IMG/VR virus record: IMGVR_UViG_3300048837_002318
Span: 1-21,669 of that record
Reading direction: 5' to 3' (one strand)
Source: a virus
DNA: 21,669 nt
Shown in pieces: positions 1,594 through 17,042 of this stretch. The notes under the pieces were generated by a model. That model saw only the letters and a list, made by a program, of their open reading frames with translations, was not told where the DNA came from and searched no databases. Every line of letters starts with the position of its first letter. The stretch's first letter is position 1. The translations under genes were made by a program, and so were the position numbers.

Positions 1594-2622
1594 CTAATGA
1601 TGCACGCCCTTGATCAGTGCCCGCGGGCGCAGGCACAGCGACAGAGGATTGGTTTGCATCTCAAGCCTCACCGACTTGTTATTGTCGGACGGAATCGCCT
1701 TGGCGTAGCGCGGCAGGCCAAGCGTATTCACCGTCTCGATATAGTCCGCCGGCGCAAAGAAGGTCTTGAACAGGTTTGGTGTGCCGAGCGGAAAGAAATG
1801 CGCTTCGTTCGTGTCGATGAACGGGGTGATGGTGTCGCCCGTATCGGTGCCGCCACCAATCCAGCCACGGTAATTCTCGAAGGTAATGCCGCCATATTTA
1901 AGGGTCGAGAACACCACGCCCTCGCGCAATCGGACGCCCTCCTGGTAGCGATAGGTATCGCGCACCTCGGCATGCTCGATCAGATCGTCCCAGAAGGTGT
2001 CGCCGCAGAGCGCATATACGCTGGTGAAGGCAACGCCACCCAGCGTCTGCGCCATGGTGCGAACGAGTTGGCTGCACTTCTTGCGCACAGCCGTATTGGC
2101 ACTGCCGAGGGCGAAATTGACCGGCGTGACCGCGGTGACGCCGAATTCCGAGTAGAGGTCGTAGATCGTGTTGCCGTCGCGGTCGACGATCAAACCCTTG
2201 ATGGCGCCGACCCGCTGGAATTCGGTCGTGACATCGAGCTGGGCTGTGAACATCTCCATGCGGCCTGCGAGATAGGTCTCGACAGACCGGGACTGCATTT
2301 GCGGCCCAAACTCGCGGACATTCTGCACTTCCTCGGCCAGCACATTGTCGTCGAGTTGATAATGCGGGACTTTCAGGACCCGGGCGCGGCGCAAGGGTTT
2401 AGGACGGGTCTCGCCGGGGCCGCCACGCGGCGTCGGATTGACCAGCGTCAGGATTCCGGCCTGCTCTTCGATCGCGATCGAGGTTGTCGGCACGGGCGCT
2501 TCATTGAAAAGCCCCAGCGAACCGAGCCGACCGGGCACGAAGGGAAGCTTGTTGATCGAGTCGGTCAGCGACACAAAGTTGAAGGCGTCGTTGTTAAAGA
2601 CGTCGAGGATCTGTTCCATCAT
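1594..2622 (-). CDS. Phage major capsid protein, lambda gpE family
   Basis: A 342-aa protein, the usual length for lambda-type E capsid proteins. It begins MMEQILDVFNNDAFNFVSLT, then has the family's early beta region (TSIAIEEQAGILTLVNPTPRG), the extended arm (RARVLKVPHYQLDDNVLAEE) and the central domain containing RVGAIKGLIVDRDGNTIYDL. The C-terminal region has FFPLGTPNLFKTFFAPADYI and QTNPLSLCLRP, also typical of E. It forms the icosahedral shell and is bound by gpD, encoded immediately upstream. AGGA lies close to the first of two tandem ATGs (2622, 2619); the second has the better spacing. It looks intact. Confidence 0.93.
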   Translation of the reverse strand: MMEQILDVFNNDAFNFVSLTDSINKLPFVPGRLGSLGLFNEAPVPTTSIAIEEQAGILTLVNPTPRGGPGETRPKPLRRARVLKVPHYQLDDNVLAEEVQNVREFGPQMQSRSVETYLAGRMEMFTAQLDVTTEFQRVGAIKGLIVDRDGNTIYDLYSEFGVTAVTPVNFALGSANTAVRKKCSQLVRTMAQTLGGVAFTSVYALCGDTFWDDLIEHAEVRDTYRYQEGVRLREGVVFSTLKYGGITFENYRGWIGGGTDTGDTITPFIDTNEAHFFPLGTPNLFKTFFAPADYIETVNTLGLPRYAKAIPSDNNKSVRLEMQTNPLSLCLRPRALIKGVHH

Positions 2623-2644: not shown

Positions 2645-3019
2645 TCAGCGTACCACGATGCCGGCGGCGCGCAGCTGATCCCACTTGGTTGATTTCTTGG
2701 GGTCGTCATCGACCGTGGCCTCGTAGCGAAGCCCGTGGCGGCTGACTTCCGCATGGCGCATCACGCCGACGGCGACCACATCTGAGGCTGTCGCATCGAC
2801 CTGGCCGACCAGGATGGCCGATGCTGTTTCCGAGCCATCAGCTGCGTTTTCCGGCGATGGCACAAATTTGCGGCTTGCGATCACCTGGCCGAGCACGGTG
2901 CCGGGTAAAAGCTTCCCAGCGCCCGAGGCAATCACGATTTGGTCGCGCGACAGCCGCCCCTCTGCATCTTCGGAAAGAATGAAGTTGCCGTCATGGGGGC
3001 TCTCATAGAGCACGGTCAT
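2645..3019 (-). CDS. Head decoration protein D, lambda gpD family
   Basis: The 124-aa product starts at ATG 3019 with a clear AGGAG at 3026-3030, six bases upstream. The N-terminus SPHDGNFILSEDAEGRLSRD leads into a beta-tulip core (IVIASGAGKLLPGTVLGQV, then ASAILVGQVDATASDVVAVG and MRHAEVSRHGLRY), matching the gpD-like decoration family. In lambda the protein trimerises on the expanded capsid and stabilises it. It lies 22 bp upstream of the capsid gene, in lambda D-E order. It is separated from the scaffold gene by an unrelated 860-bp moron block, so it may need its own promoter. Confidence 0.88.
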   Translation of the reverse strand: MTVLYESPHDGNFILSEDAEGRLSRDQIVIASGAGKLLPGTVLGQVIASRKFVPSPENAADGSETASAILVGQVDATASDVVAVGVMRHAEVSRHGLRYEATVDDDPKKSTKWDQLRAAGIVVR

Positions 3020-3036
3020 AAAGTTCTCCTGTTCGC

Positions 3037-3052
3037 CGCATCGATCGATGCG
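3037..3052. promoter_or_regulatory. 16-bp perfect palindrome upstream of gpD
   Basis: CGCATCGATCGATGCG is an uninterrupted palindrome lying just upstream of the gpD ribosome binding site and 18 bp from its start codon. It could be an operator for late-gene control or a chance GATC-rich palindrome in a GC-rich genome. No -35/-10 pair is convincing beside it. Confidence 0.3.
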
Positions 3053-3172
3053 CGCGCGCTCGCTGGTCTTGAAGCCGAAGCGTTATGCTTGACGAATTGG
3101 CTCGTGCCGCCGCATGAAGGGGCAGAGCATCTTGCGAGTTTTCTTGCCGCGTTGCGGGTGAGGAAATATTCG

Positions 3173-3547
3173 ATGTTAGAGCGCTGGAAGCATTGGGCGC
3201 AGCTCGTCAAGCGGGATGCACATGCCCTGTATCTTGCCGCGCGTGATCCTCGGGTCCCCTGGGTAGCCAAAACGTTGGCACTCGCTGTCGCGGCTTATGC
3301 GCTATCGCCTATTGACCTAATCCCAGATTTCATTCCCGTCTTTGGATACCTGGATGATCTGGTTATCGTGCCAGCGGGCATTGCGTTGGTAATAAGACTT
3401 GTGCCGCCCGACATCATGGCTGAACACCGCGCTATTGCGGTGGCAGCTCAAGATCGGCCGGTCAGCAGGAAAGTTGCGGCTATTATCGTCGGACTTTGGG
3501 TGCTGAGCATTGGCCTGACGCTGTGGTGGGCCAAACGATACATATAG
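3173..3547 (+). CDS. DUF1232 (YkvA-type) small membrane protein
   Basis: A 124-aa protein with the DUF1232 signature YALSPIDLIPDFIPVFGYLD at residues 42-61, preceded by a soluble N-terminal helix (MLERWKHWAQLVKRDAHALY). Hydrophobic segments at about 31-48, 61-77 and 101-119 predict two or three membrane passes. The family is widespread in bacteria and its function is unknown. I chose ATG 3173 because an AGGA lies about 8 bases upstream and the family domain starts there. The open frame further upstream runs antisense into gpD and is not credible. It is on the strand opposite the phage head genes and has bacterial rather than phage homology, so it reads as a moron. Confidence 0.85.
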   Translation: MLERWKHWAQLVKRDAHALYLAARDPRVPWVAKTLALAVAAYALSPIDLIPDFIPVFGYLDDLVIVPAGIALVIRLVPPDIMAEHRAIAVAAQDRPVSRKVAAIIVGLWVLSIGLTLWWAKRYI

Positions 3548-3879: not shown

Positions 3880-4329
3880 TTACTTGGATGCGGCAGCCAC
3901 CGCTGCTCGCCGGCGCGCGTAGACGTCTTCGGTGCTTATCACGCGTGGCGGCTGATTGGTGGTCCGCTCGCCTCCGGAGCCGAGCTTCGGCTGCGCCTCC
4001 CGCGCCATCGCTTCGTCGAGACTTCCCTTGGTCGCCGGTGATTTGGCGAGGGCCGCGAGCGCGACCTCTGCCGGGAACTCGGTGTCGAAGGCAAAGTACT
4101 GGGCAAGGTTTTCGCGGCCCTTTGCAGCTTCACTCGTCAGAATGCCTTTTATCCGCTCCCGTTCCGTCAAGACGCCCCGTTGCACACCCTCGGTAGCACC
4201 CGCTGAACGCGCTTCACTCAGTTTGGTCGCGACGTCATTGACGGCCTGGACCGGTTCCGTCGGTTCGCTAGGGGGCGTCGTTTCGCTTTCGGGCGCAGCT
4301 CCTGCGGCGGCTAGGATTACGTCTCGCAT
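3880..4329 (-). CDS. Probable capsid scaffolding protein (Nu3-position)
   Basis: A 149-aa, charged, low-complexity protein encoded 9 bp after the S49 protease gene. Its AGGAG ribosome binding site overlaps the protease stop codon, so the two are translated together. The order is a Pro/Thr/Glu-rich N-terminus (about 10-35), a helical middle (SEARSAGATEGVQRGVLTER, about 38-57) and a basic C-terminal helix ending ARRRAAVAAASK. This matches the short helical scaffolds downstream of the maturation protease in lambda-type head operons, although lambda Nu3 itself is an internal start in the protease gene. The role is inferred from position and composition. Confidence 0.6.
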   Translation of the reverse strand: MRDVILAAAGAAPESETTPPSEPTEPVQAVNDVATKLSEARSAGATEGVQRGVLTERERIKGILTSEAAKGRENLAQYFAFDTEFPAEVALAALAKSPATKGSLDEAMAREAQPKLGSGGERTTNQPPRVISTEDVYARRRAAVAAASK

Positions 4330-4338
4330 TGCTGTCTC

Positions 4339-5259
4339 CTAATGTCTGGCCTTGATCGCTTTGACGAAGCCGTCGAAGGCCTCCAGTGCATGACCGGTGG
4401 CGTCGGCAAGCCCGAGGGCCACCGCATCCCGGCCGCGATAGTCCTGCGCCTCGGTCGCCAAGGCGGCCTGCGCGGTGAAACGCGAGCCACGGTGACGCCC
4501 AACGCTCTCAGCAAACGTCTGCCGGGCCGCTTCGAGATCGCCGACCATCCGCTGGGCGACCTCGTCGGAAAGAGCTTCGAACGGGTTGCCCGCCATTTTT
4601 CGGGCGCCCGCCCGTAGCACCGTGACCTTCACACCCTGCTGCTCAAGCGCTTTCGACCAATCAGTGTGCAACGTCACCACGCCGATCGAGCCGGCGCGCC
4701 CGTGTTCGGGCATCACGATCTGGCGCGCTGCGGACGCCAGGAGGTAACCCGCAGACAGGGCGTGATCGGTCAGAATGGCTAAGGTCGGCATTTCGGCCGA
4801 CAGGCGGGCGATCAGGTCGGCGGTCTCGAAAGCGCCGGCAAGCTCGCCGCCAAAACTGTCGATCTCGAACACCGCGGCCTTAATGGCGGGGTTGCGCATG
4901 GCGCGCAGCACCTGCGCTTGCAATCCCTCATAGGAAGTCCGCCCCGACATGGCGCCGACATAAGCACCCTTGTGCACCAGCGTGCCTTCGATCGGGATTA
5001 GCGCGACCCCATCGATCGTGTCGAACATGGCTGACCCGTTGGCCTCATATCGCCGACCCGTACGAGCGCCGATACGACCAGCCAGTGGCCGGCCATCTTC
5101 AAACGCCGTATGATTGACGCGCTCGCCAGCTCCCTCCAGCACCACGCCGCCCTCGACGATCCGTCCGCCGATGCCGGCGAGCGCAGCATCCAGCTTGCCT
5201 GAATGCATCAAGAGCGGCGTGTTGAACACCCGCGCGGCCAGTTCAGGGCGCAGGATCAT
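4339..5259 (-). CDS. S49 family capsid maturation protease (gpC-like)
   Basis: A 306-aa member of the SppA/ClpP-fold S49 peptidases used by lambda-type phages to process the scaffold and portal during prohead assembly. Visible features are the core start GVALIPIEGTLVHKG (about 84-98), the oxyanion-region motif EIDSFGGEL (132-140), the nucleophile in HALSAGYLLAS with Ser169, GSIGVVTLHTDWSKALEQQG (190-209), and the general base in GARKMAGNPFEAL with Lys221. The Ser-Lys pair is intact, so it should be active. The start ATG at 5259 overlaps the upstream stop (ATGA). Length is normal for phage S49 proteins without the extra scaffold domain, which is encoded separately here. Confidence 0.92.
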   Translation of the reverse strand: MILRPELAARVFNTPLLMHSGKLDAALAGIGGRIVEGGVVLEGAGERVNHTAFEDGRPLAGRIGARTGRRYEANGSAMFDTIDGVALIPIEGTLVHKGAYVGAMSGRTSYEGLQAQVLRAMRNPAIKAAVFEIDSFGGELAGAFETADLIARLSAEMPTLAILTDHALSAGYLLASAARQIVMPEHGRAGSIGVVTLHTDWSKALEQQGVKVTVLRAGARKMAGNPFEALSDEVAQRMVGDLEAARQTFAESVGRHRGSRFTAQAALATEAQDYRGRDAVALGLADATGHALEAFDGFVKAIKARH

Positions 5260-7928
5260 GCCAGGGCCTTTTGCTGCTTGGACGGCGATTGATCGTCAGT
5301 GTCACCGGAAGGCGCGGCCTTACGATCGAACATCGCATCGGGATCAAGGCCAAGCGCAAGCATCTCCTTGCGCTCGCGGGCTCGCTGCTGAATGGTCTCG
5401 AGATAATCCTCGCCCTGTTCGGAGCATTCGCGCTCAAGCGTCGACAAACCTGCCGCTAGGCGCTCGGTCGCGGCCGTCGCCTCCTTGTGCGGATCGACCC
5501 AGCCGCGACCGGGACCGATCCATTTGGCCGCGCAATAGGCAGCCTTGGCCTGCGCAAATTCAGGCGCCCCCTTGGGCAGCGTGACGACGCCACGGTCGAT
5601 CGCTTCTTCCAGCCAGCCAGCATAGATCGGCGCCATAAAAGCTTGCGCGAAGTGCTCCTTGCGGGCGGTGAAGCCGCGCCAGACTTCGAGTAGAGCCGCG
5701 CGGGCCGAGGAATAGTTGACCTGGCCCCAGTCCATCGACAGCTGCTCATAGGTCATGCCCATGGCGGCTGCCACATTGCGCAGGCTCGCGCGCTCGAAGG
5801 CCTCGAATACGCTGTTGGGATGGTTCGGCTTGGTCAGTGTTACCTTCTCGCCCGGGAACGTAAACGCGATCTTGGCGCCACCGACATTGATCGGTGCGGC
5901 CTGGTAATAGTCGAGGCGCTGCTGCTGGTAGGCTGACAGCTCCTCGCCGCCGCCAAGCGCCGAGGCAAACTGGTCATGATCGAACGGGCTCTCGACAAAA
6001 GCCGCCATCACCGCGTTGAGGACGGCAGCCTGCAGTTCGGCCTCATCGTAGCGCCCGAGCATCCGCAACCGTTTGACGATCGGCGCCAGTACGGAGACGC
6101 CACGATACTGGCCGGCGCGGCCCGGTTCGAAGGCGTGCACCACCACCCGGCGGCCGAAGCTGGTCTCTCGCGGAATGCGCTCCCAGCTCCAGAACATCGG
6201 ATGAAACACATTCTGGTCGCCCGGATGGGCTCGACGGATATGATAGGCGAGCGGTTCGCCATGTTCGCCAAGCTCGATGCCCTGCCGGCGCCAATAGGTA
6301 TCGACCGCGTTGTAGGGATTCGATAGCCGGTCCGGATCGATCACCTGAACCGCGGTCGCGTATGGTCCGCCGCGCGGCAGCCAGAGAATCGCGGCAAGCG
6401 CCTCGCCATCCATCAGTCGATGCCGGACCCGTGCGTGCCGGCGGCAGAATTCATAGACCCGGTGCTCGGGGACTTCATCCTTCTTGCCGGGCCGAAAGCC
6501 GGAATCGATGAACGCGCGGCGGATCACAACGCCGCCGATCGGCCGCGCCAGAAGTTCGGCGAGATCGGTCCAGACCTCGCCCTGTTCGGTCGCTCCCCAA
6601 ATCTCGTTCTGCTCGATCAGCCAGCTTTCCTGGCGGGTGCCGAACCCGCGGATGACATAGACCAGCCGGTTCTTCTGGACGTCGATGCCAGCGGTGAGCA
6701 GCAAAACGCCGTCCGGAATCTCACCCGAGCGGTAAGGCAGCTTCAGACGGGCGACATCCGCCCATTCCGGCGCATCCCCGCCGGTCGGGGCCCACAATTC
6801 GCCAAAGCCGCCATTGATGACAGTCTGGACTTCTTCCTGATCGCCCGAGTTCAACGCCTCGACATAGCGGCCGGCACGCTCGCCGAACGACACGAAAGGC
6901 GACGCAAGTCCTGAGACCCAGAAGCTCAGGGTCGTGCCCTCCGGCGGATCGCCAATCACGCGGCCGTCCGGTTCGATCCGCTGTCCTGGCGCAACATAGA
7001 CGCCGTGGGCGTTCATCTCGAACTTGTGCTTCTCCTCGATGACGCCGTCACAATTGGGACATTGCAGAAAAGCGAGCCTCCGCGTCTCGATCGCGGTCGC
7101 ATCGCGCTCGATGTTCTCTTTGCCGCCCTTCGGGGTGATGTCGATCTTCGGGATAACCAGGCAATCGAACCGCGGGATGAAATAGTCCTCGCAATGCGGA
7201 CAGGGCCAGGCCCAATGGTAACGGGTCCCCCGCTGCCAAAGCTTCCAGATCGGGCTGTCGAGGCCCTCGATGTCGTCCTGCTCGACGACCTTCCAGAATT
7301 TAAGCCCCGTTGCCTCGTCTTTCTCGATCTCGACCGATCCTTCGGTCGGCGTCGACGTCACTCCGAGAGTAAAGTCGGCGTGGGTATCGCCGCGAACCTC
7401 AAGGAGGCGTACGGGGTCACCCTCGCCCTTGATGTTCTTGGCCATGCCGTCGCGTTCATCGACGATGGCGAGACCTGCCGGATCCGACTTGAGCTGGTTC
7501 GCAGAGCCTGCCCAGGCCAGACGCACCGGCACGCCGGAGACGATCTTGCGCGTCTTCTTGTTCTTCTTGCCGCGCGCCAGCTTGATCGACAGGCTCGGCG
7601 ATCGGTTGAGCGCATCGTCGAACCGCGGCTCGAACTGGTCCGTCACGAAATTTCGGTCGGGGCCTGCATAGATGATCGGCACCGGACGCTGATCGAGCCG
7701 CGACAGAATCACATCGATAACAGAATCGGTTTTGCCCATCTGGCCGCCACAGACGAACACCACGGTATTGTAGCGCGCGTCCTCAAAGGCCCGCATGAAC
7801 GGGATCATATAAGGGGTCAGCGCCGGGTCCTTCGGCCCGGGCCGGCCCGATGAGAGCGGATAGACCCGGTTCTCGCGCGCCCACTGGTCAGTCGATACCT
7901 TCCTCGTCGGGCGCAGGATCCTCGTCAC
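5256..7928 (-). CDS. Fused terminase large subunit (GpA) - portal protein (gpB), probable in-frame deletion product
   Basis: One open frame of 890 codons from GTG 7928. An ATG at 7988 is an alternative; I prefer 7928 because family similarity begins at TRILRPTRKVSTDQW and overlap with TerS is smaller. Residues 1-505 are a GpA-type terminase: Walker A-like GGQMGKT (61-67), Walker B LAIVDERD (153-160), two CxxC pairs (Cys243/246, 290/293), and the first nuclease acids in GIDVQKN (Asp416) and AFIDSGFR (Asp475). After VYEFCRRHARVR the sequence becomes a lambda-type portal: MDGEALAAILWLPRG, DPDRLSNPYN, RGVSVLAPIVKRL, NAVMAAFVESP, and a late TYEQLSMDWGQVNYSSARAA. The terminase C-terminus, any gpW gene and the portal N-terminus are absent. 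Translation is coupled to the protease gene (ATGA). Packaging and portal function are both probably lost. Confidence 0.88.
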   Translation of the reverse strand: MTRILRPTRKVSTDQWARENRVYPLSSGRPGPKDPALTPYMIPFMRAFEDARYNTVVFVCGGQMGKTDSVIDVILSRLDQRPVPIIYAGPDRNFVTDQFEPRFDDALNRSPSLSIKLARGKKNKKTRKIVSGVPVRLAWAGSANQLKSDPAGLAIVDERDGMAKNIKGEGDPVRLLEVRGDTHADFTLGVTSTPTEGSVEIEKDEATGLKFWKVVEQDDIEGLDSPIWKLWQRGTRYHWAWPCPHCEDYFIPRFDCLVIPKIDITPKGGKENIERDATAIETRRLAFLQCPNCDGVIEEKHKFEMNAHGVYVAPGQRIEPDGRVIGDPPEGTTLSFWVSGLASPFVSFGERAGRYVEALNSGDQEEVQTVINGGFGELWAPTGGDAPEWADVARLKLPYRSGEIPDGVLLLTAGIDVQKNRLVYVIRGFGTRQESWLIEQNEIWGATEQGEVWTDLAELLARPIGGVVIRRAFIDSGFRPGKKDEVPEHRVYEFCRRHARVRHRLMDGEALAAILWLPRGGPYATAVQVIDPDRLSNPYNAVDTYWRRQGIELGEHGEPLAYHIRRAHPGDQNVFHPMFWSWERIPRETSFGRRVVVHAFEPGRAGQYRGVSVLAPIVKRLRMLGRYDEAELQAAVLNAVMAAFVESPFDHDQFASALGGGEELSAYQQQRLDYYQAAPINVGGAKIAFTFPGEKVTLTKPNHPNSVFEAFERASLRNVAAAMGMTYEQLSMDWGQVNYSSARAALLEVWRGFTARKEHFAQAFMAPIYAGWLEEAIDRGVVTLPKGAPEFAQAKAAYCAAKWIGPGRGWVDPHKEATAATERLAAGLSTLERECSEQGEDYLETIQQRARERKEMLALGLDPDAMFDRKAAPSGDTDDQSPSKQQKALA
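6405..6435 (-). other. Junction between terminase and portal sequence
   Basis: Reading leftward, the last clearly terminase-like residues are FCRRHARVR and the first clearly portal-like residues are LMDGEALA. The switch therefore lies within about 30 bp. No stop, frameshift or insertion sequence marks it. Short CGGCA-like words on both sides could have served as microhomology, but this cannot be shown without an intact relative. Confidence 0.7.
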
Positions 7929-8409
7929 CCGATCGATAAGAACGACGGAGTTTTGCGATGCGGTCGGCCACTTCGGTGAGCGCATCATCCACTTCTCGCT
8001 GCAGCTGCTCCCGCTGCTCGATGTTGCGGGTCAAGCGCGCCGGAATCGCATTGACCCGTGCGACCACGGCGCCCGCCACCTCGTCCACCAGCGTCATGGC
8101 TTCCACCAGAGGCACGAGCTCTCGCTCGGTCTGCGCGACCGCCAGTTCCTCCTTGCGGGTCCGAATATCTTGCAGCCGGCTGAGCGAGGCCGTCTTGCTC
8201 GACCGACGCGCTTCGTCCTTCAGGAACCGGATATAGCCCTGCACCACATCGACCACGCGGTAGCGGCCGCGCTGGACCTTGGGGATCCAGCCGTCCTTGG
8301 ACAGCCGCCGGATCCACTCCGGCGTCACCATCAAGAGCCGTGCCGCGACCTCGACCGTTATCGTGCCGGCGGCCTCATCGCCGCGCTGCGCGTCCGTGGT
8401 TTTCGCCAT
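7888..8409 (-). CDS. Terminase small subunit / Nu1-like DNA-packaging protein
   Basis: A 173-aa protein. Residues about 16-65 form a winged helix-turn-helix (TITVEVAARLLMVTPEWIRR, then PKVQRGRYRVVDVVQGYIRF) like lambda Nu1 and other MerR-type packaging proteins. After it come long charged helices (SRLQDIRTRKEELAVAQTER and NIEQREQLQREVDDALTEVA) that suit oligomerisation and contact with the large subunit. The acidic tail GDEDPAPDEEGID overlaps the start of the large subunit gene. It should recognise the packaging site and recruit TerL. It looks intact, in contrast to its partner. ATG 8409 is followed by a typical polar N-terminus. Confidence 0.85.
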   Translation of the reverse strand: MAKTTDAQRGDEAAGTITVEVAARLLMVTPEWIRRLSKDGWIPKVQRGRYRVVDVVQGYIRFLKDEARRSSKTASLSRLQDIRTRKEELAVAQTERELVPLVEAMTLVDEVAGAVVARVNAIPARLTRNIEQREQLQREVDDALTEVADRIAKLRRSYRSGDEDPAPDEEGID

Positions 8410-8432: not shown

Positions 8433-8526
8433 TGGCGCCGCCATCTTTGTAATCAAACGATCCGATTATCTACTTGGCTTTGGCGCCGATTGAAGCGTGT
8501 ATGCGGCAACCCCGATGGAGACCGCA

Positions 8527-8748
8527 ATGCGCCGCAGCCCCGACAACCGCAACGCCCTTGACGCTTTCATGGCCCGCAAGGCGGAGATCGACGCCATGCT
8601 CGAACGCCTCAAGGCGCTGAGCGACGACCACTTTGGCTGTGCGCCCGATGAGATCGAATGGGGGCATGTGGGCACGCTCGCGCACTACTCCGAACTGCTC
8701 AAGCGCATCACCGATTCAGCCTTCAAGGAAGGCGAATACGCCGAATAA
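8527..8748 (+). CDS. Conserved small protein of unknown function (73 aa)
   Basis: I take ATG 8527 because GGAG at 8517-8520 lies six bases before it; ATGs at 8497 and 8515 lack such a site. The product begins MRRSPDNRNALDAFMARKAE and continues with helical IDAMLERLKALSDDHFG, then EIEWGHVGTLAHYSELLKRI and an acidic end. It is soluble and probably all-helical. I know no function for it; similar short proteins occur in Rhizobiales genomes. It lies on the strand opposite the terminase genes, together with the DUF3489 gene, and may be a moron expressed in the lysogen. Confidence 0.75.
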   Translation: MRRSPDNRNALDAFMARKAEIDAMLERLKALSDDHFGCAPDEIEWGHVGTLAHYSELLKRITDSAFKEGEYAE

Positions 8749-8852
8749 GCGCTTCGGCTCCTCCCCATCGCCCTGCACCGTCATGGCCCGCGGGGCTCAG
8801 GCCGGTGGCAGGGCCGCGATGGTCGTGGCCCGTCTGCCAAAGGAGCGATGTC

Positions 8853-9134
8853 ATGACTTCACGTTCGAAGAAATCCAAGAGCCAGGCGCGGAAGTTCGCA
8901 AAACCGAAGAAACAGAAAACGCCACGCGCCCGCGAGAACAGCAAGCAAGCGCAGCTCGTCGCGATGCTACGAGACACCAAGGGCGCCACCATCGACGAGA
9001 TCGCCAAGGCGCTGTCCTGGCAGCCGCACACCGTGCGGGGCGCTATGGCCGGGGCGCTGAAGAAGAAGCTCGGGCTTGAGGTAACCTCGGAGAAGGACGA
9101 CAAGCGCGGGCGCGTCTACCGCATCGGAAGCTAG
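8853..9134 (+). CDS. DUF3489 protein
   Basis: A 93-aa protein with a very basic N-terminus (MTSRSKKSKSQARKFAKPKK) followed by a helix-turn-helix-like DUF3489 domain: KQAQLVAMLRDTKGATIDEI, then WQPHTVRGAMAGALKKKLGL and GRVYRI. The family is common in alphaproteobacteria, often near mobile elements, and the fold suggests DNA binding; no target is known. AGGAG at 8841-8845, seven bases before ATG 8853, decides the start. It ends 11 bp before the end of the convergent methyltransferase gene, leaving almost no room for a terminator. Confidence 0.88.
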   Translation: MTSRSKKSKSQARKFAKPKKQKTPRARENSKQAQLVAMLRDTKGATIDEIAKALSWQPHTVRGAMAGALKKKLGLEVTSEKDDKRGRVYRIGS

Positions 9135-9145
9135 ATTAGTAGCAA

Positions 9146-10402
9146 TCAACCGTGCGACTGCGGAAACATCTGACCGGTGGCGGCGTGCCTTGCGCTGCCG
9201 CCGGTTGCTTCCTGCCAGCGGGCGACAATGACGTCGGCATATTTCGGATCAAGCTCGATCAGCCTCGCCCGCCGTCCTGCACGCTCCGCCGCGATCAGCG
9301 TGGTGCCTGAGCCGCCGAACGGGTCGAGCACGATGTCGCGGCTCTTGGACGAGTTGCGGATCGCCCGCTCGACCAGTGCCACCGGCTTCATCGTCGGATG
9401 CAGATCATTTTTCGCCGGCTTATCAAAAAACCACACGTCGCCCTGATCGCGGGCGCCGCACCAATAGTGGTCGGCGCCGTCCTTCCAGCCATAGAGGATC
9501 GGCTCGTACTGGCGCTGATAATCAGACCGGCCAAGCGTGAAGGTGTTCTTGGCCCAGATCACGAAGGTCGACCATTTGCCGCCGGCTTTGCGGAAGGCCT
9601 GCTGCAGCGCGTCTAATTCGGATGACGACATGCAGACGTATACGGCACCCTTGGTGACGGTGAGGATGTTGACGCAGGCGTCGTAGAGGAACGCCCCAAA
9701 CTCCAGGCCGAGATTGTCGTTCAGGATCGGCCGGTTCTTCCCACGCTTTTTGTCCTCAGCCGAATTTGCGTAGTTCACGCCATAGGGTGGGTCGCAGAAC
9801 GTCATGTCCGCGAGCTCACCATCCAGCACCTTCTCGACGTCGCTCAGCACCGTGGCGTCGCCACAGAGGACCCTGTGCTCGCCACAGATCCACAGATCGC
9901 CAGGGCGGCTGATCGGGTCTGCCGGCGGCTCGGGCGCCTTGTCAGGGTCGCCGTCGAGGTCGGCGCCGACCTGCAGCAGTCTGTCGAGTTCGTTTTTGGA
10001 GAAGCCGGTCAACGTCAGATCGAAACCGGCCTCGCGCAGATCGCCGAGCTCAAGCCGCAGGAGCTCATCGCTCCATTCACTTGCTTCCGTCAGCCGGTTG
10101 TCGGCGATCGCGTAGGCCTGGCACTGCGCCTCGGTCCAGCCGCGGGCGACAATCGTCGGCACATCGACGATGCCCTCCAGCCTGGCGGCGTCAAGCCGGC
10201 CGTGGCCGGCGATCAGCATGCCGCTTTCGCGCACCAGCACCGGCATGGTCCAGCCGAATTCGCGGAGCGAGGCTCGGATTTGCTCGACCTGTTCGGGGCT
10301 GTGAACGCGGGCGTTGCGCGGGTTCACGGTCAACCGCTCGATCGGCCACAGTTCGACCTTGGCCGCAGGCCAGGCGATCGACGGTTTGACGAGGGAATTC
10401 AT
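9146..10402 (-). CDS. ParB-domain-containing DNA adenine methyltransferase (beta class)
   Basis: A 418-aa protein with two domains. Residues about 16-105 are a ParB/Srx-like domain (PIERLTVNPRNARVHSPEQV, then VLVRESGMLIAGHGRLDAAR). Residues about 170-398 are an N6-adenine or N4-cytosine methyltransferase with catalytic motif IV DPPYGVNYAN (204-213) and, after it, the AdoMet motif DPFGGSGTTLIAAERAGRRA (360-379). The IV-before-I order makes it beta class, and DPPY favours adenine. No restriction enzyme is nearby, so it is an orphan, likely protecting phage DNA or affecting replication timing. This architecture is frequent in alphaproteobacterial prophages. The start is ATG 10402 with no clear Shine-Dalgarno sequence. 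Confidence 0.93.
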   Translation of the reverse strand: MNSLVKPSIAWPAAKVELWPIERLTVNPRNARVHSPEQVEQIRASLREFGWTMPVLVRESGMLIAGHGRLDAARLEGIVDVPTIVARGWTEAQCQAYAIADNRLTEASEWSDELLRLELGDLREAGFDLTLTGFSKNELDRLLQVGADLDGDPDKAPEPPADPISRPGDLWICGEHRVLCGDATVLSDVEKVLDGELADMTFCDPPYGVNYANSAEDKKRGKNRPILNDNLGLEFGAFLYDACVNILTVTKGAVYVCMSSSELDALQQAFRKAGGKWSTFVIWAKNTFTLGRSDYQRQYEPILYGWKDGADHYWCGARDQGDVWFFDKPAKNDLHPTMKPVALVERAIRNSSKSRDIVLDPFGGSGTTLIAAERAGRRARLIELDPKYADVIVARWQEATGGSARHAATGQMFPQSHG

Positions 10403-12758: not shown

Positions 12759-13025
12759 GTCACCGACCTCTAGCACCGTTGGTGACGCGACTTTGTTGAA
12801 GAAAGTCACAGCGTTATCCGATTTCGTCACCAACCTCCGTGTCACCAACGGGTCGAAAAACATCTCTATAGGAAAAATGAATCCGCCGATCGAACATCGA
12901 TTTCCGCGTATGACTCTCTAGACCGTTGGTGACGTTGGTGACGTTGGTGACACCATTGTTTTTGCAGCGATTTTCGTGTCACCAACCTCGCTAAAGAGGT
13001 TGGTGACACCGCGAAGGTTGGTGAC
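12759..13025. repeat. Array of GTTGGTGAC / GTCACCAAC 9-mers
   Basis: Nine exact copies start at 12778 (+), 12826 (-), 12841 (-), 12925 (+), 12934 (+), 12943 (+), 12978 (-), 12999 (+) and 13017 (+). The one-mismatch copy GTCACCGAC is at 12759 (-). Three copies are in direct tandem with no gap (12925-12951). Mixed orientation and irregular spacing resemble iterons or a multi-site regulator region, and rule out a CRISPR array. A degenerate remnant of a repetitive coding end is also possible. Confidence 0.75.
12976..13009. repeat. 14-bp perfect inverted repeat within the 9-mer array
   Basis: GTGTCACCAACCTC and GAGGTTGGTGACAC flank GCTAAA. Each arm contains one copy of the 9-mer, so the hairpin is built from two array units plus matching flanks. 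No T-run follows on either strand, which argues against a terminator and for a protein-binding site or origin structure. Confidence 0.7.
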
Positions 13026-13162
13026 ATCTCCATATGCTGAACGGTCATTTTGCGTGGATCACCCGCCACTAGGCCGCGCGTTGTTCGAATCGATGAAAGA
13101 CCCTTGGTGAAGCCTCCGGTCGGAACAGATGTCCGTTTGCCGCGGGATGCTTTCAACGAGAA

Positions 13163-14140
13163 TCAGCGGCTCTCAAAAAGCCCGACCTGGCTTACCACCT
13201 GCGCCCACTTGGCGGCTTCCGCCGCCATGTAGTGCCCGAATTCTTCGGGTGTGAAGAGAATGGGCGTGATCGCCAGATTCGCAAACCTCGCCTTCATTTC
13301 CGGATCTATAAGTCCGAGGTTGATCTCCCGGTTGAGGAAGGCCACCACTTCGTTGTTTGTCTCCTTTGGAACGCCAACGCCGAGCCAGGAATTCGCGTCA
13401 TATCCTGAAATCGTCTCGGCTATGGTCGGAAGATCGGGCAACAGAGGATGTCGACGTCGACCTGCCATCGCGAGGGGTTTCAATGTACCCGCTCGAATAT
13501 GCGAAAGGCTTGTTGTCAAGACGGCGAACATGACGTGGACGCGACCGCTGATGAGATCGGTAAACGCTGCTGCCTCTCCTGGATATGGGATGTGCGTCAT
13601 TTTCGTTCCGGTCATCATTTGAAACAGTTCGCCTGCCAGATGTGACGTCGTGCCGGAGCCAAAGGACGCTAGATTAAGCGTCCCTGGATTGGCGTTGGCA
13701 TACGCGATGAATTCTTCCAGGTTGTCGGCGCGAATCGATGGGTTGATTAACAGCACCAGCGCGAACTCCACCAGTCCAGAAACTGGCGCCACATCCACAA
13801 GCACATCAAAAGGAAGCTTCGCGAACAGCGCCCGATTGACTATCGCCGAAGCCGGCACAAGCAGAAGCGTATGGCCGTCTGGAGCCGATTTGATCGCCTC
13901 GTGAACAGCCAGGTTGCCGCTCGCTCCCGGTTTATTGTCGATGATCACCGGCTGAAGGAGCCGACCCGAAAGCCAATCTGCCATGATGCGGGCGGCTACG
14001 GTGGCGCCTCCGCCCGGAGGAAAGCCGACCAGCCACCGAATGGGTCTGCTGGGATAAGTTTGAGCTCGAGTAACCAAACCCATCCCGAGAGCGGCGAACC
14101 CGGTACAGAGGCCAACAAAATTTCGGCGAGGCATCAGCAT
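13163..14140 (-). CDS. Tripartite tricarboxylate transporter substrate-binding protein (Bug/TctC family)
   Basis: A 325-aa periplasmic binding protein of normal family length. The N-terminus has a Tat-like signal (PRRNFVGLCTGFAALGMGLV, probable cleavage near TRA-QTYP). Family landmarks follow: YPSRPIRWLVGFPPGGGATV (about 29-48), VIIDNKPGASGNLA (65-78), DGHTLLLVPAS, LNLASFGSGTTSHLAGELF and the loop HIPYPGEAAAFTDLISGRVH. It would bind a small carboxylate or related organic acid in the periplasm. No TctA or TctB membrane genes are nearby, so it is an orphan, as many Bug proteins are. It is bacterial cargo, not a phage gene. A second ATG at 14134 is an equally possible start. Confidence 0.93.
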   Translation of the reverse strand: MLMPRRNFVGLCTGFAALGMGLVTRAQTYPSRPIRWLVGFPPGGGATVAARIMADWLSGRLLQPVIIDNKPGASGNLAVHEAIKSAPDGHTLLLVPASAIVNRALFAKLPFDVLVDVAPVSGLVEFALVLLINPSIRADNLEEFIAYANANPGTLNLASFGSGTTSHLAGELFQMMTGTKMTHIPYPGEAAAFTDLISGRVHVMFAVLTTSLSHIRAGTLKPLAMAGRRRHPLLPDLPTIAETISGYDANSWLGVGVPKETNNEVVAFLNREINLGLIDPEMKARFANLAITPILFTPEEFGHYMAAEAAKWAQVVSQVGLFESR

Positions 14141-14182
14141 GGAACTTTTTCCCGGCGCCGAGCTTGGAGGCTGAGACCGATT

Positions 14183-14231
14183 GCGTCTGCAAACGAGCGA
14201 TCATAGCAGAAACGGTTTGCGCGGCAGACGC
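14183..14231. promoter_or_regulatory. Inverted repeat between divergent Bug and kinase genes
   Basis: GCGTCTGC (14183-14190) and GCAGACGC (14224-14231) are perfect 8-bp arms 33 bp apart, in the 114-bp gap between the two divergent start codons. GCAAAC and GTTTGC lie just inside them. This could be a shared control region; no clear promoter boxes stand out. Confidence 0.3.
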
Positions 14232-14254
14232 CGAAGTTCCAACCGGGGAGGGCG

Positions 14255-16633
14255 ATGTTGCGGAGCGAAGTGAAATCCACGCTGAAGGTGGATGACGCGA
14301 GCGCACCGGTTGTGCAGCGCGAAACGGTGAAACTGGGGGAAAAGTTAGCCGAGGAACGGTATGAAGCGCTTTCCAAGGCGCTGGAGGCGGAACGCGCGCG
14401 TCTCGCTGCGATCGTGGAAGGGTCTCGGGACGCGATCTGGAGCTGGGACATTGAGGGCAACATCCTCAGCTGGAACGCGGAAGCGCAGCGAATGTTCGGC
14501 TATACCAATGATGAGATCATTGGCAAGCCGTTGCTCCTTCTTGTTCCTAAGGATCGCCACGCCGCTGCGCGCCAGGTGATTGGAAAACTCGGGCAGGGGG
14601 AGTGGTTCGGTCAGTATGAGACAGTCAGAGTCCGAAGGGACGGAAGGCCGATCGACGTCGAACTCACCGTTTCACCGATTCGGGATGCAGAAAATCAGGT
14701 TATTGGCGCTTGCACTGTTTGCCGCGATATAACCGATCGGAAACAAGTGCAGGCAGCGCTCGCAAAGCGTGTCGCCGAACTGACGACCCTTTATCAGCTT
14801 ACGGAGCGACTGCAGAGCGCGCGGACTCCCGATGACATCTATCAGGCGGCGCTCACAGCGATAGCAGACGCATTGAATTGCGAACGCGCATCGATCCTTC
14901 TGTTCGATGCATCGCAAGCAATGCGTTTTGTTGCATGGTTGGGATTGTCAGAATCGTATCGAACAGCGGTTAATGGCCATTCGCCGTGGACGCCGGATGT
15001 GCAAAGTCCGCAGCCCATTTATGTGGAAGATATTCGGTTCAGCGGTGAAACTGACGCCCTCAAGGCGACCGTAGAGACGGAGGGAATACGAGCCCTCGCT
15101 TTCATTCCACTGATTGCGAACGACAAGCTGATCGGGAAATTCATGACTTATTATCCTGAGCCGCACTGCTTCACGGAACATGAAACGAGTCTTGCCAACA
15201 CCATTGCGCGTCAGCTGGCCCTTGCCGTGTCGAGGTACAGATATGAAGAAGAGCTGCGGGCGTCCGAACAACGCTTCCGCCTGATGTCGGAACACGCGCC
15301 CGTGATGATCTGGATCAGTGATCAGCAAGGTCAATGCCTGCATCTCAATCGGATGTTGCGGACGTTCTGGGGTGTGGATGAAGCCAGCATCTCCGATTTT
15401 GATTGGAGCCGGACTCTTCATCCCGATGATGCGTACGATATTCAGACTCAAGTTATGAATGCACTAAAAAACCAAAGTAGCGTAACAATCAAAGGACGCT
15501 ACGCAGATGCCGCGAGCCGCTACCGGGTCTTGCAGACCGACGCGCGCCCCAGGTTTTCGGCAGCAGGCGAATTTCTCGGTATGATCGGAGTCAACGTCGA
15601 TGTTACCGAGCGCGAAGAGGCGGAAGAAGCGCTTCGGAAAAGCGAACAGCGCTTTCGCAATGCAGTGGAAGCTGCCCCGAGCGGGATGATTATGACGGAT
15701 AGCGAAGGGCACATCGTTTTGTCCAATGCCCATTCCGAGCGGCTCTTCGGATACACGCGGGATGAACTGGAAGGGAAGAAGATCGAAATCCTTGTACCGG
15801 AACGGTTTCGGGATCCTCATCCCAATCTTCGTTCGGGCTATTACGAACATCCCAGCGCCAGACCAATGGGATTGCGCCGCGATCTGTTCGCGCGACGCAA
15901 AGATGGCACCGAGTTGCCAGTCGAGATTGGACTGAGCCCGATCGAGACCGACGAGGGACTCATGACTCTTGCCGCGATCGTGGATATTAGCGAACGAAAA
16001 AAGGCTGAGGCTCATCGCGAACTTTTAATCGCTGAACTCAATCATCGTGTGAAGAACACGCTATCAACCGTTCAGTCCTTGGCGTGGCAAACGTTCAAAG
16101 ATTCGCCCAATAGGCCCACCGTAAAGGCGTTCGAAGCTAGACTTATTGCGCTCTCCTCAGCCCACGATGTTCTGACACGTGAGAACTGGGAAAGCGCGGG
16201 CTTGAGGGAGATCATCGAGCAAGCGATCGCGCCGCATCGCTCCGATGTCGATGACCGCTTTGCAATTGAGGGTCCGGAAGTGCGATTGACGCCAAAATCA
16301 GCCCTCGCTATCGCGATGGGATTGCATGAGCTTTGCACTAACGCTGCGAAATATGGCGCTCTTTCGATTCCGAAGGGCCGTGTGAGTATTTCGTGGGGCG
16401 TCGATCGTGGCGTTTCACCAGCGCAATTCAATTTGCTTTGGCAGGAGCGCGGAGGACCTATCGTAAAGCCACCCCAGCGAAAGGGGTTCGGGTCCCTGCT
16501 TGTTGAGAAGTTGCTGGCCTCGGATCTGGGTGGAACAGTTGTTCTATCTTATGCTCCCGAAGGCGTAACCTGCTCAATTTTAGCTCCGCTCCACGATGTT
16601 GGCGGACATGTGCCGGGAGTCGTCTATGGGTAG
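14255..16633 (+). CDS. HWE-family sensor histidine kinase, PAS-GAF-PAS-PAS
   Basis: A 792-aa cytoplasmic kinase without membrane segments. The order is: short coiled N-terminus, PAS about 46-160 (AIVEGSRDAIWSWDIEGNIL, CRDITDRK), GAF about 175-328, PAS about 333-455 (APVMIWISDQQGQCLHLNRM), PAS about 461-583 (APSGMIMTDSEGHIVLSNAH, VDISERKK), then HWE kinase. The H box is ELNHRVKNTL with phosphoacceptor His597; the N box is HELCTNAAKYGALS with Asn696; the family-defining WQERGGP (729-735) and GFGSLLVEK (744-752) are present. All catalytic parts look intact. The ligand cannot be read from sequence; such PAS domains sense light, redox or small molecules in relatives. GGGGAG precedes ATG 14255. It is translationally coupled to the receiver gene. 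Confidence 0.95.
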   Translation: MLRSEVKSTLKVDDASAPVVQRETVKLGEKLAEERYEALSKALEAERARLAAIVEGSRDAIWSWDIEGNILSWNAEAQRMFGYTNDEIIGKPLLLLVPKDRHAAARQVIGKLGQGEWFGQYETVRVRRDGRPIDVELTVSPIRDAENQVIGACTVCRDITDRKQVQAALAKRVAELTTLYQLTERLQSARTPDDIYQAALTAIADALNCERASILLFDASQAMRFVAWLGLSESYRTAVNGHSPWTPDVQSPQPIYVEDIRFSGETDALKATVETEGIRALAFIPLIANDKLIGKFMTYYPEPHCFTEHETSLANTIARQLALAVSRYRYEEELRASEQRFRLMSEHAPVMIWISDQQGQCLHLNRMLRTFWGVDEASISDFDWSRTLHPDDAYDIQTQVMNALKNQSSVTIKGRYADAASRYRVLQTDARPRFSAAGEFLGMIGVNVDVTEREEAEEALRKSEQRFRNAVEAAPSGMIMTDSEGHIVLSNAHSERLFGYTRDELEGKKIEILVPERFRDPHPNLRSGYYEHPSARPMGLRRDLFARRKDGTELPVEIGLSPIETDEGLMTLAAIVDISERKKAEAHRELLIAELNHRVKNTLSTVQSLAWQTFKDSPNRPTVKAFEARLIALSSAHDVLTRENWESAGLREIIEQAIAPHRSDVDDRFAIEGPEVRLTPKSALAIAMGLHELCTNAAKYGALSIPKGRVSISWGVDRGVSPAQFNLLWQERGGPIVKPPQRKGFGSLLVEKLLASDLGGTVVLSYAPEGVTCSILAPLHDVGGHVPGVVYG

Positions 16634-17033
16634 AGGTGTCACCAGCGGTTTGCGCGTCCTCCTTGTTGAGGATGAGGCCTTGTTGCGCACGATGATCGGC
16701 GAGATGCTCACCGAAATGGGCCATCAAATTGTAGGCGAGGCGGCTCAACTAGATGCGGCCATTAAACTCGCGAGCGAGGCCGATTATGATTTGGGCCTCT
16801 TAGACCTCAATCTAGGCAATGGTATTACATATGATGTCGTGGAAGTCCTACTTGAGCGCCGAAAGGCCGTAGTTCTATCCACTGGCTATGGTCGCGCCGG
16901 ATTAAGCCCGAGATACGAGAGCTGCATTGTTGTGCAGAAGCCGTTTACCGAAGAAGCGGTCAGTCGCGCTATCCAGCTGAGTCTGAGACAGGCTGCCCAA
17001 GCTCCTGAGCAGGAGGCAGCAGGCTCGGCTTGA
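16626..17033 (+). CDS. Standalone response regulator (receiver domain only)
   Basis: A 135-aa single receiver domain: acidic pocket VLLVEDEALL (Glu15, Asp16), phosphoacceptor Asp60 in LGLLDLNLG, Thr86 in LSTGYG and Lys105 in VQKPF, then a short tail. There is no output domain, so it must act by protein contact or phosphotransfer. ATG 16626 overlaps the end of the kinase gene by 8 bp and has GGGAG six bases upstream, so the kinase is the probable partner. HWE kinases are often paired with such receivers. An in-frame ATG at 16596 is less likely. Its stop lies 9 bp from the convergent stop of the phage primase-helicase gene. Confidence 0.93.
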   Translation: MGRGVTSGLRVLLVEDEALLRTMIGEMLTEMGHQIVGEAAQLDAAIKLASEADYDLGLLDLNLGNGITYDVVEVLLERRKAVVLSTGYGRAGLSPRYESCIVVQKPFTEEAVSRAIQLSLRQAAQAPEQEAAGSA

Positions 17034-17042
17034 ACCGGGGCG

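Follow-up and report, generated by a model that had tools for sequence, protein, structure and literature searches.

A terminase-portal reading frame in a phage with a lambda-like head module probably records a recent in-frame deletion

Whether an uninterrupted reading frame that passes from a terminase into a portal protein encodes a working fusion protein is the question raised by IMG/VR record IMGVR_UViG_3300048837_002318, of which a stretch of 21,669 bp was analyzed (hereafter, the window). We consider it most probable (roughly 0.85) that a single recent in-frame deletion made a packaging-defective derivative of a temperate phage with a lambda-like head module, probably as a prophage. This is a known way for a phage to turn defective, and the locus is a fresh example of it and not a novel kind of protein.

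The frame lies on the minus strand (7988..5256) and comprises 910 codons with no internal stops. Pfam and PHROGs analyses and comparison with relatives confirmed the composition proposed by the sequence-only reading, namely a GpA-type terminase (residues 1-521) that continues directly into a lambda B-type portal, from about B residue 147 to its end. The terminase part (6427..7988, minus strand) contains the ATPase domain, GpA_ATPase (PF05876), at residues 47-329 (profile positions 1-245 of 247, E 4e-44), followed by the first part of the nuclease domain, GpA_nuclease (PF20454), at residues 354-530, where the match covers only profile positions 2-177 of 294, or approximately the first 60%. The portal part (5256..6426, minus strand; B residues ~147-535) was matched by Phage_portal_2 (PF05136) at residues 521-776 of the frame (profile positions 107-353 of 354). 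PHROGs places the terminase/portal split at residue 520/521, in agreement with Pfam. Both halves are cut within conserved domains and not at domain borders: Pfam and motif alignment revealed that the frame lacks part of the endonuclease domain, including one of its three conserved aspartates, and it also lacks a full-length portal domain, B residues 1-146 being gone. A search of solved structures with B found the lambda portal and 8vhx, and the search with A found no relative.

Related viral loci provide the arrangement from which the frame departs. In L005 (IMGVR 3300010050_000016), A (678 aa), gpW (74 aa), and B (535 aa) are separate and complete, and Pfam profiles assign the nuclease (positions 1-291 of 294), gpW, and the portal (positions 3-353) to three genes. 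The same organization, with a complete A of 677-678 aa, gpW of 74 aa, and B of 535 aa at the usual spacing, is present in nine relatives (L005, L006, L007, L008, L010, L011, L013, L014, and L018). In two further relatives, L015 and L016, the three genes are also complete but W and B are separated by an extra segment, and the partial contigs L009, L012, L017, L021, L023, and L026 are consistent with the separate-gene arrangement. The extra DNA between gpW and portal carries small opposite-strand open reading frames and is located at 8256-9380 in L015, 2304-3089 in L016, and 848-1972 in L023. Given that this DNA sits between W and B, outside A, an intein or mobile gene at the breakpoint was rejected.

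Alignments with the relatives end at window position 6426/6427 from both sides, which locates the switch between the GpA and lambda portal families inside the interval of 6405-6435 named beforehand. The window reads CACGGGTC up to this point and CGGCATCG beyond it; in the relatives, A reads CGGGTC and then GCTTATGCC, and B reads GGCGTTC and then CGGCATCG, such that the only letters in common at the breakpoint (6426..6427) are the 2-bp microhomology TC. Measured from the A start to the B stop, the window is 1126-1139 bp shorter than the nine normally spaced intact relatives. What has been lost is A from codon 521/522, the whole of gpW, and B to approximately codon 146 (27% of the portal), and so the claim of an in-frame deletion reaching from late A across gpW into early B was borne out against intact relatives. 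The minimal explanation would be one recent deletion of ~1.14 kb, with 2 bp of microhomology, running from A codon 521/522 through gpW to about B codon 147, in which the two stumps were joined in frame by chance. By calculation, at least two shared bases are expected at ~19% of random pairs, so the TC match marks the event as ordinary illegitimate recombination.

A recombination hotspot was also considered on account of L021, which starts 7 bp past the breakpoint. It was rejected: L021 is identical to L010 and starts ~125 bp before L009 and L010 diverge, which fits an assembly-graph overlap. Comparison of L009 (4313-6527) with L010 (6001-8212) showed identity over the terminase gene's first 1694 bases, after which the two differ by ~70% or more in places. 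Recombination or strain mixing accounts for this divergence, which affects W and the 3′ part of A.

The locus resembles the lambda A-W-B operon (J02459) in its gene order, in an A of the GpA family and a B of the Phage_portal_2 family, and in its overlapping B and protease genes. Lambda has gpW between A and B, as do the relatives of the window; unlike lambda, the window has lost W entirely, together with the 3′ part of A and the 5′ part of B, and identity to lambda is ~24% for A and 35% for B. The best matches among annotated phages are Microcystis phage Mae-JY30 and Vibrio phage VP882 (~42 and 37% identity), in which, unlike the window, terminase and portal are separate complete genes. Lambdoid defective prophages and deletion derivatives offer a close parallel, in that essential head or packaging genes are lost while the remaining late operon is intact and in that the event is a short-homology illegitimate recombination. 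The breakpoints seen here differ from those of lambdoid deletion derivatives in fusing terminase to portal in frame.

The deleted segment contains residues that packaging would be expected to need. The aspartates of nuclease motifs I (AGIDVQ) and II (FIDSG) are retained, and that of motif III (NHFLDC), which is common to the intact relatives, Mae-JY30, VP882, and lambda in the alignment, falls within the deleted segment; the three aspartates together presumably form the metal site. The 146 N-terminal residues that the portal has lost can be aligned to counterparts in lambda and the solved portals 8vhx and 8k38. The third casualty, gpW, is required for head-tail joining in lambda. Relative to the intact relatives, an essential packaging gene has been destroyed, A and B being truncated and gpW absent, and no second copy of A, gpW, or B was found within the 21.7-kb window. 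The product would keep the terminase ATPase domain, would be without the third nuclease aspartate and the portal N terminus, and would have no gpW to work with; for such a genome, neither cleavage and packaging of its own DNA nor assembly of a portal would be expected. Because a nuclease aspartate, gpW, and 27% of the portal have been removed, self-packaging should be lost, and the loss of packaging that had been predicted is, judged from the sequence, the likely outcome.

A defective genome of this kind could still be packaged if related intact phages supplied terminase, gpW, and portal. Such helper dependence, a sub-case of the deletion reading, is possible though unlikely. Relatives with complete A, W, and B genes share IMG samples with L003 and L004, the two other records of the deletion described below (L010 and L018 with L003, L008 with L004), and the other genes compared, the small terminase subunit among them, are undamaged. 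Defective prophages are known to complement one another, for example in E. coli O157 (PMC2669165).

The deletion reading requires that the junction be real DNA. The fused junction is present in three records: the window, IMGVR 3300048589_000908 (L003), and 3300048835_000129 (L004), which have neighboring IMG sample numbers, perhaps from one project, and may not be fully independent. An exact junction-spanning 26-mer was found in one other IMG/VR contig, 3300048589_000908 (L003/L033). Over 13,000 bp, L003 differs from the window at a single position (window position 5066; G in the window, T in L003); it stops at window position 13000 and extends 9.47 kb beyond window position 1. This extent differs from that of the window, which indicates a separate assembly. 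L004 is 100% identical to the window over 6366 bp and ends 12 bp past the junction. A search of IMG/VR for an intact copy of the same strain, with strain-specific 29- and 34-mers flanking the junction on either side, returned the records with the deletion and no others.

That the join instead arose in silico or from a chimeric library molecule, the real phage being intact, is very unlikely. These are metagenomic contigs from samples with several close relatives, and L004 ends only 12 bp after the junction, as an artefact might; however, a 2-bp overlap is far below an assembler k-mer, so a de Bruijn assembler could not have made the join and molecules spanning it must exist, and the identical join recurs in the records of two named samples and in the window with different contig extents. 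No collapsed repeat is present at the junction, the finding that would have undercut the sequence-only reading. On the sequence evidence the junction is real DNA, and assembler collapse is unlikely.

Outside this strain the fusion was not encountered. Among 29 to 30 related viral loci, it is absent from all except L003 and L004, which belong to the same strain as the window. It is likewise absent from the 17 genomes with matches (E ≤ 1e-60) among 397 searched from the order of Methylobacterium oryzihabitans, in each of which the match is terminase-only or portal-only and no open frame exceeds 696 codons. Thus neither an intact phage carrying this fused gene nor the fusion in a diverged lineage was found among the related viral loci or these 17 matching genomes. 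In the best of 797 matched phage records, terminase and portal are separate features, and no published description of a terminase-portal fusion, and no paper mentioning the IMG samples, was found in the part of the literature covered.

The remainder of the late operon allows the age of the event to be judged. On the minus strand, a full-length terminase small subunit (TerS; 7888..8409) precedes the fused frame, and a full-length S49-type head maturation protease (4339..5259) follows it, succeeded by a scaffold-like protein of the head maturation protease/scaffold C-terminal family (3880..4329), head decoration protein D (2645..3019), and major capsid protein E (1594..2622), as identified by PHROGs (TerS, S49, and scaffold), Pfam (S49, D, and E), and comparison with relatives. 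S49, scaffold, D, and E were thus present downstream as described, with one gene overlooked, a DUF1232 gene (2939-3547, plus strand) that lies between scaffold and D against the direction of the late operon. The DUF1232 region is colinear in L010 and absent from L005. The ATGA overlap of the B stop and the S49 start is retained, so the translational coupling of downstream genes that had been expected to survive would do so.

Pairwise dN/dS values were calculated with our own Nei-Gojobori script, pairs including the window being compared with intact-intact pairs. Median values were 0.078 versus 0.089 for the A part, 0.052 versus 0.060 for the B part, and 0.034 versus 0.036 for the capsid protein, and those of the A part, B part, S49, scaffold, D, E, neck, and methyltransferase genes all fell within the intact-intact range; TerS was somewhat above intact pairs (0.18 versus 0.12). 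On the L003 extension, the tail genes show neither truncation nor stops in comparison with L005 and L006. With the other structural and tail genes full length and dN/dS normal, the event looks recent. The recency proposed earlier is thus supported, there being no decay elsewhere and one difference in 13 kb between two records, whereas the accompanying suggestion of general decay or domestication is not, because the other genes compared are untruncated and have dN/dS values resembling those of the intact relatives.

The low dN/dS of both halves is explained by constraint that predates the deletion, and the clean frame needs no selection because the B frame is open and one-third of random A-to-B deletions, by calculation, retain the frame. 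That selection keeps a fused ATPase-portal protein for a new function, for example as a dominant-negative, interfering packaging protein with which a domesticated prophage or similar element blocks related phages, is most improbable. The length of the clean frame and the conservation of its ATPase domain and of most of its portal speak for such selection, but frame retention by chance is this frequent, dN/dS records the time before the deletion, the halves are cut inside conserved domains, and the fusion is absent from every diverged relative compared. The earlier proposal of selection for the fused product is therefore not upheld. The locus also warns against reading a functional fusion protein into every clean frame that joins two gene families in a metagenomic contig.

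A large, resolvase-type serine recombinase is encoded in 5 of 10 relative or sister contigs, and an S24 repressor-like domain is present in two others of those ten; no tyrosine integrase was found in the relative contigs. The recombinase suggests that the phage group is probably temperate. The window and L003 both end short of the recombinase and are without host flank. The genome with the deletion would most simply be an integrated prophage, replicated by its host and with its other genes as yet undecayed, and it is probably a prophage. The locus would capture, cleanly and in a form that can be dated, the earliest stage in the conversion of a temperate phage to a defective one: one deletion, no other damage, and intact relatives sharing the samples.

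Elsewhere in the window, a region of lower GC content between a RuvC-like gene and a VapE/primase gene (13030-17040) has the appearance of host-like cargo within the phage. It encodes a TctC-type receptor (13163-14140, minus strand), a PAS/GAF/HWE histidine kinase (14255-16633, plus strand), and a receiver-domain protein (16596-17033, plus strand), and its best match in the 397 genomes covers part of the kinase at just 68% DNA identity. At the same site, L006 and L026 carry ~2.9 and ~1.1 kb of other DNA, respectively. Just before the cargo, short GGTTGGTGACA-like repeats in direct and inverted orientation are clustered at 12770-13030; L003 ends there at window position 13000, and the homology of L006 and L026 ends at 13026. 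The stretch between TerS and the methyltransferase is variable and contains small plus-strand genes (8497-9134), one with DUF3489. The methyltransferase gene itself (9146-10402) combines a ParB-like N-terminal domain with an N6/N4 DNA methyltransferase and matches the common phage family phrog_498.
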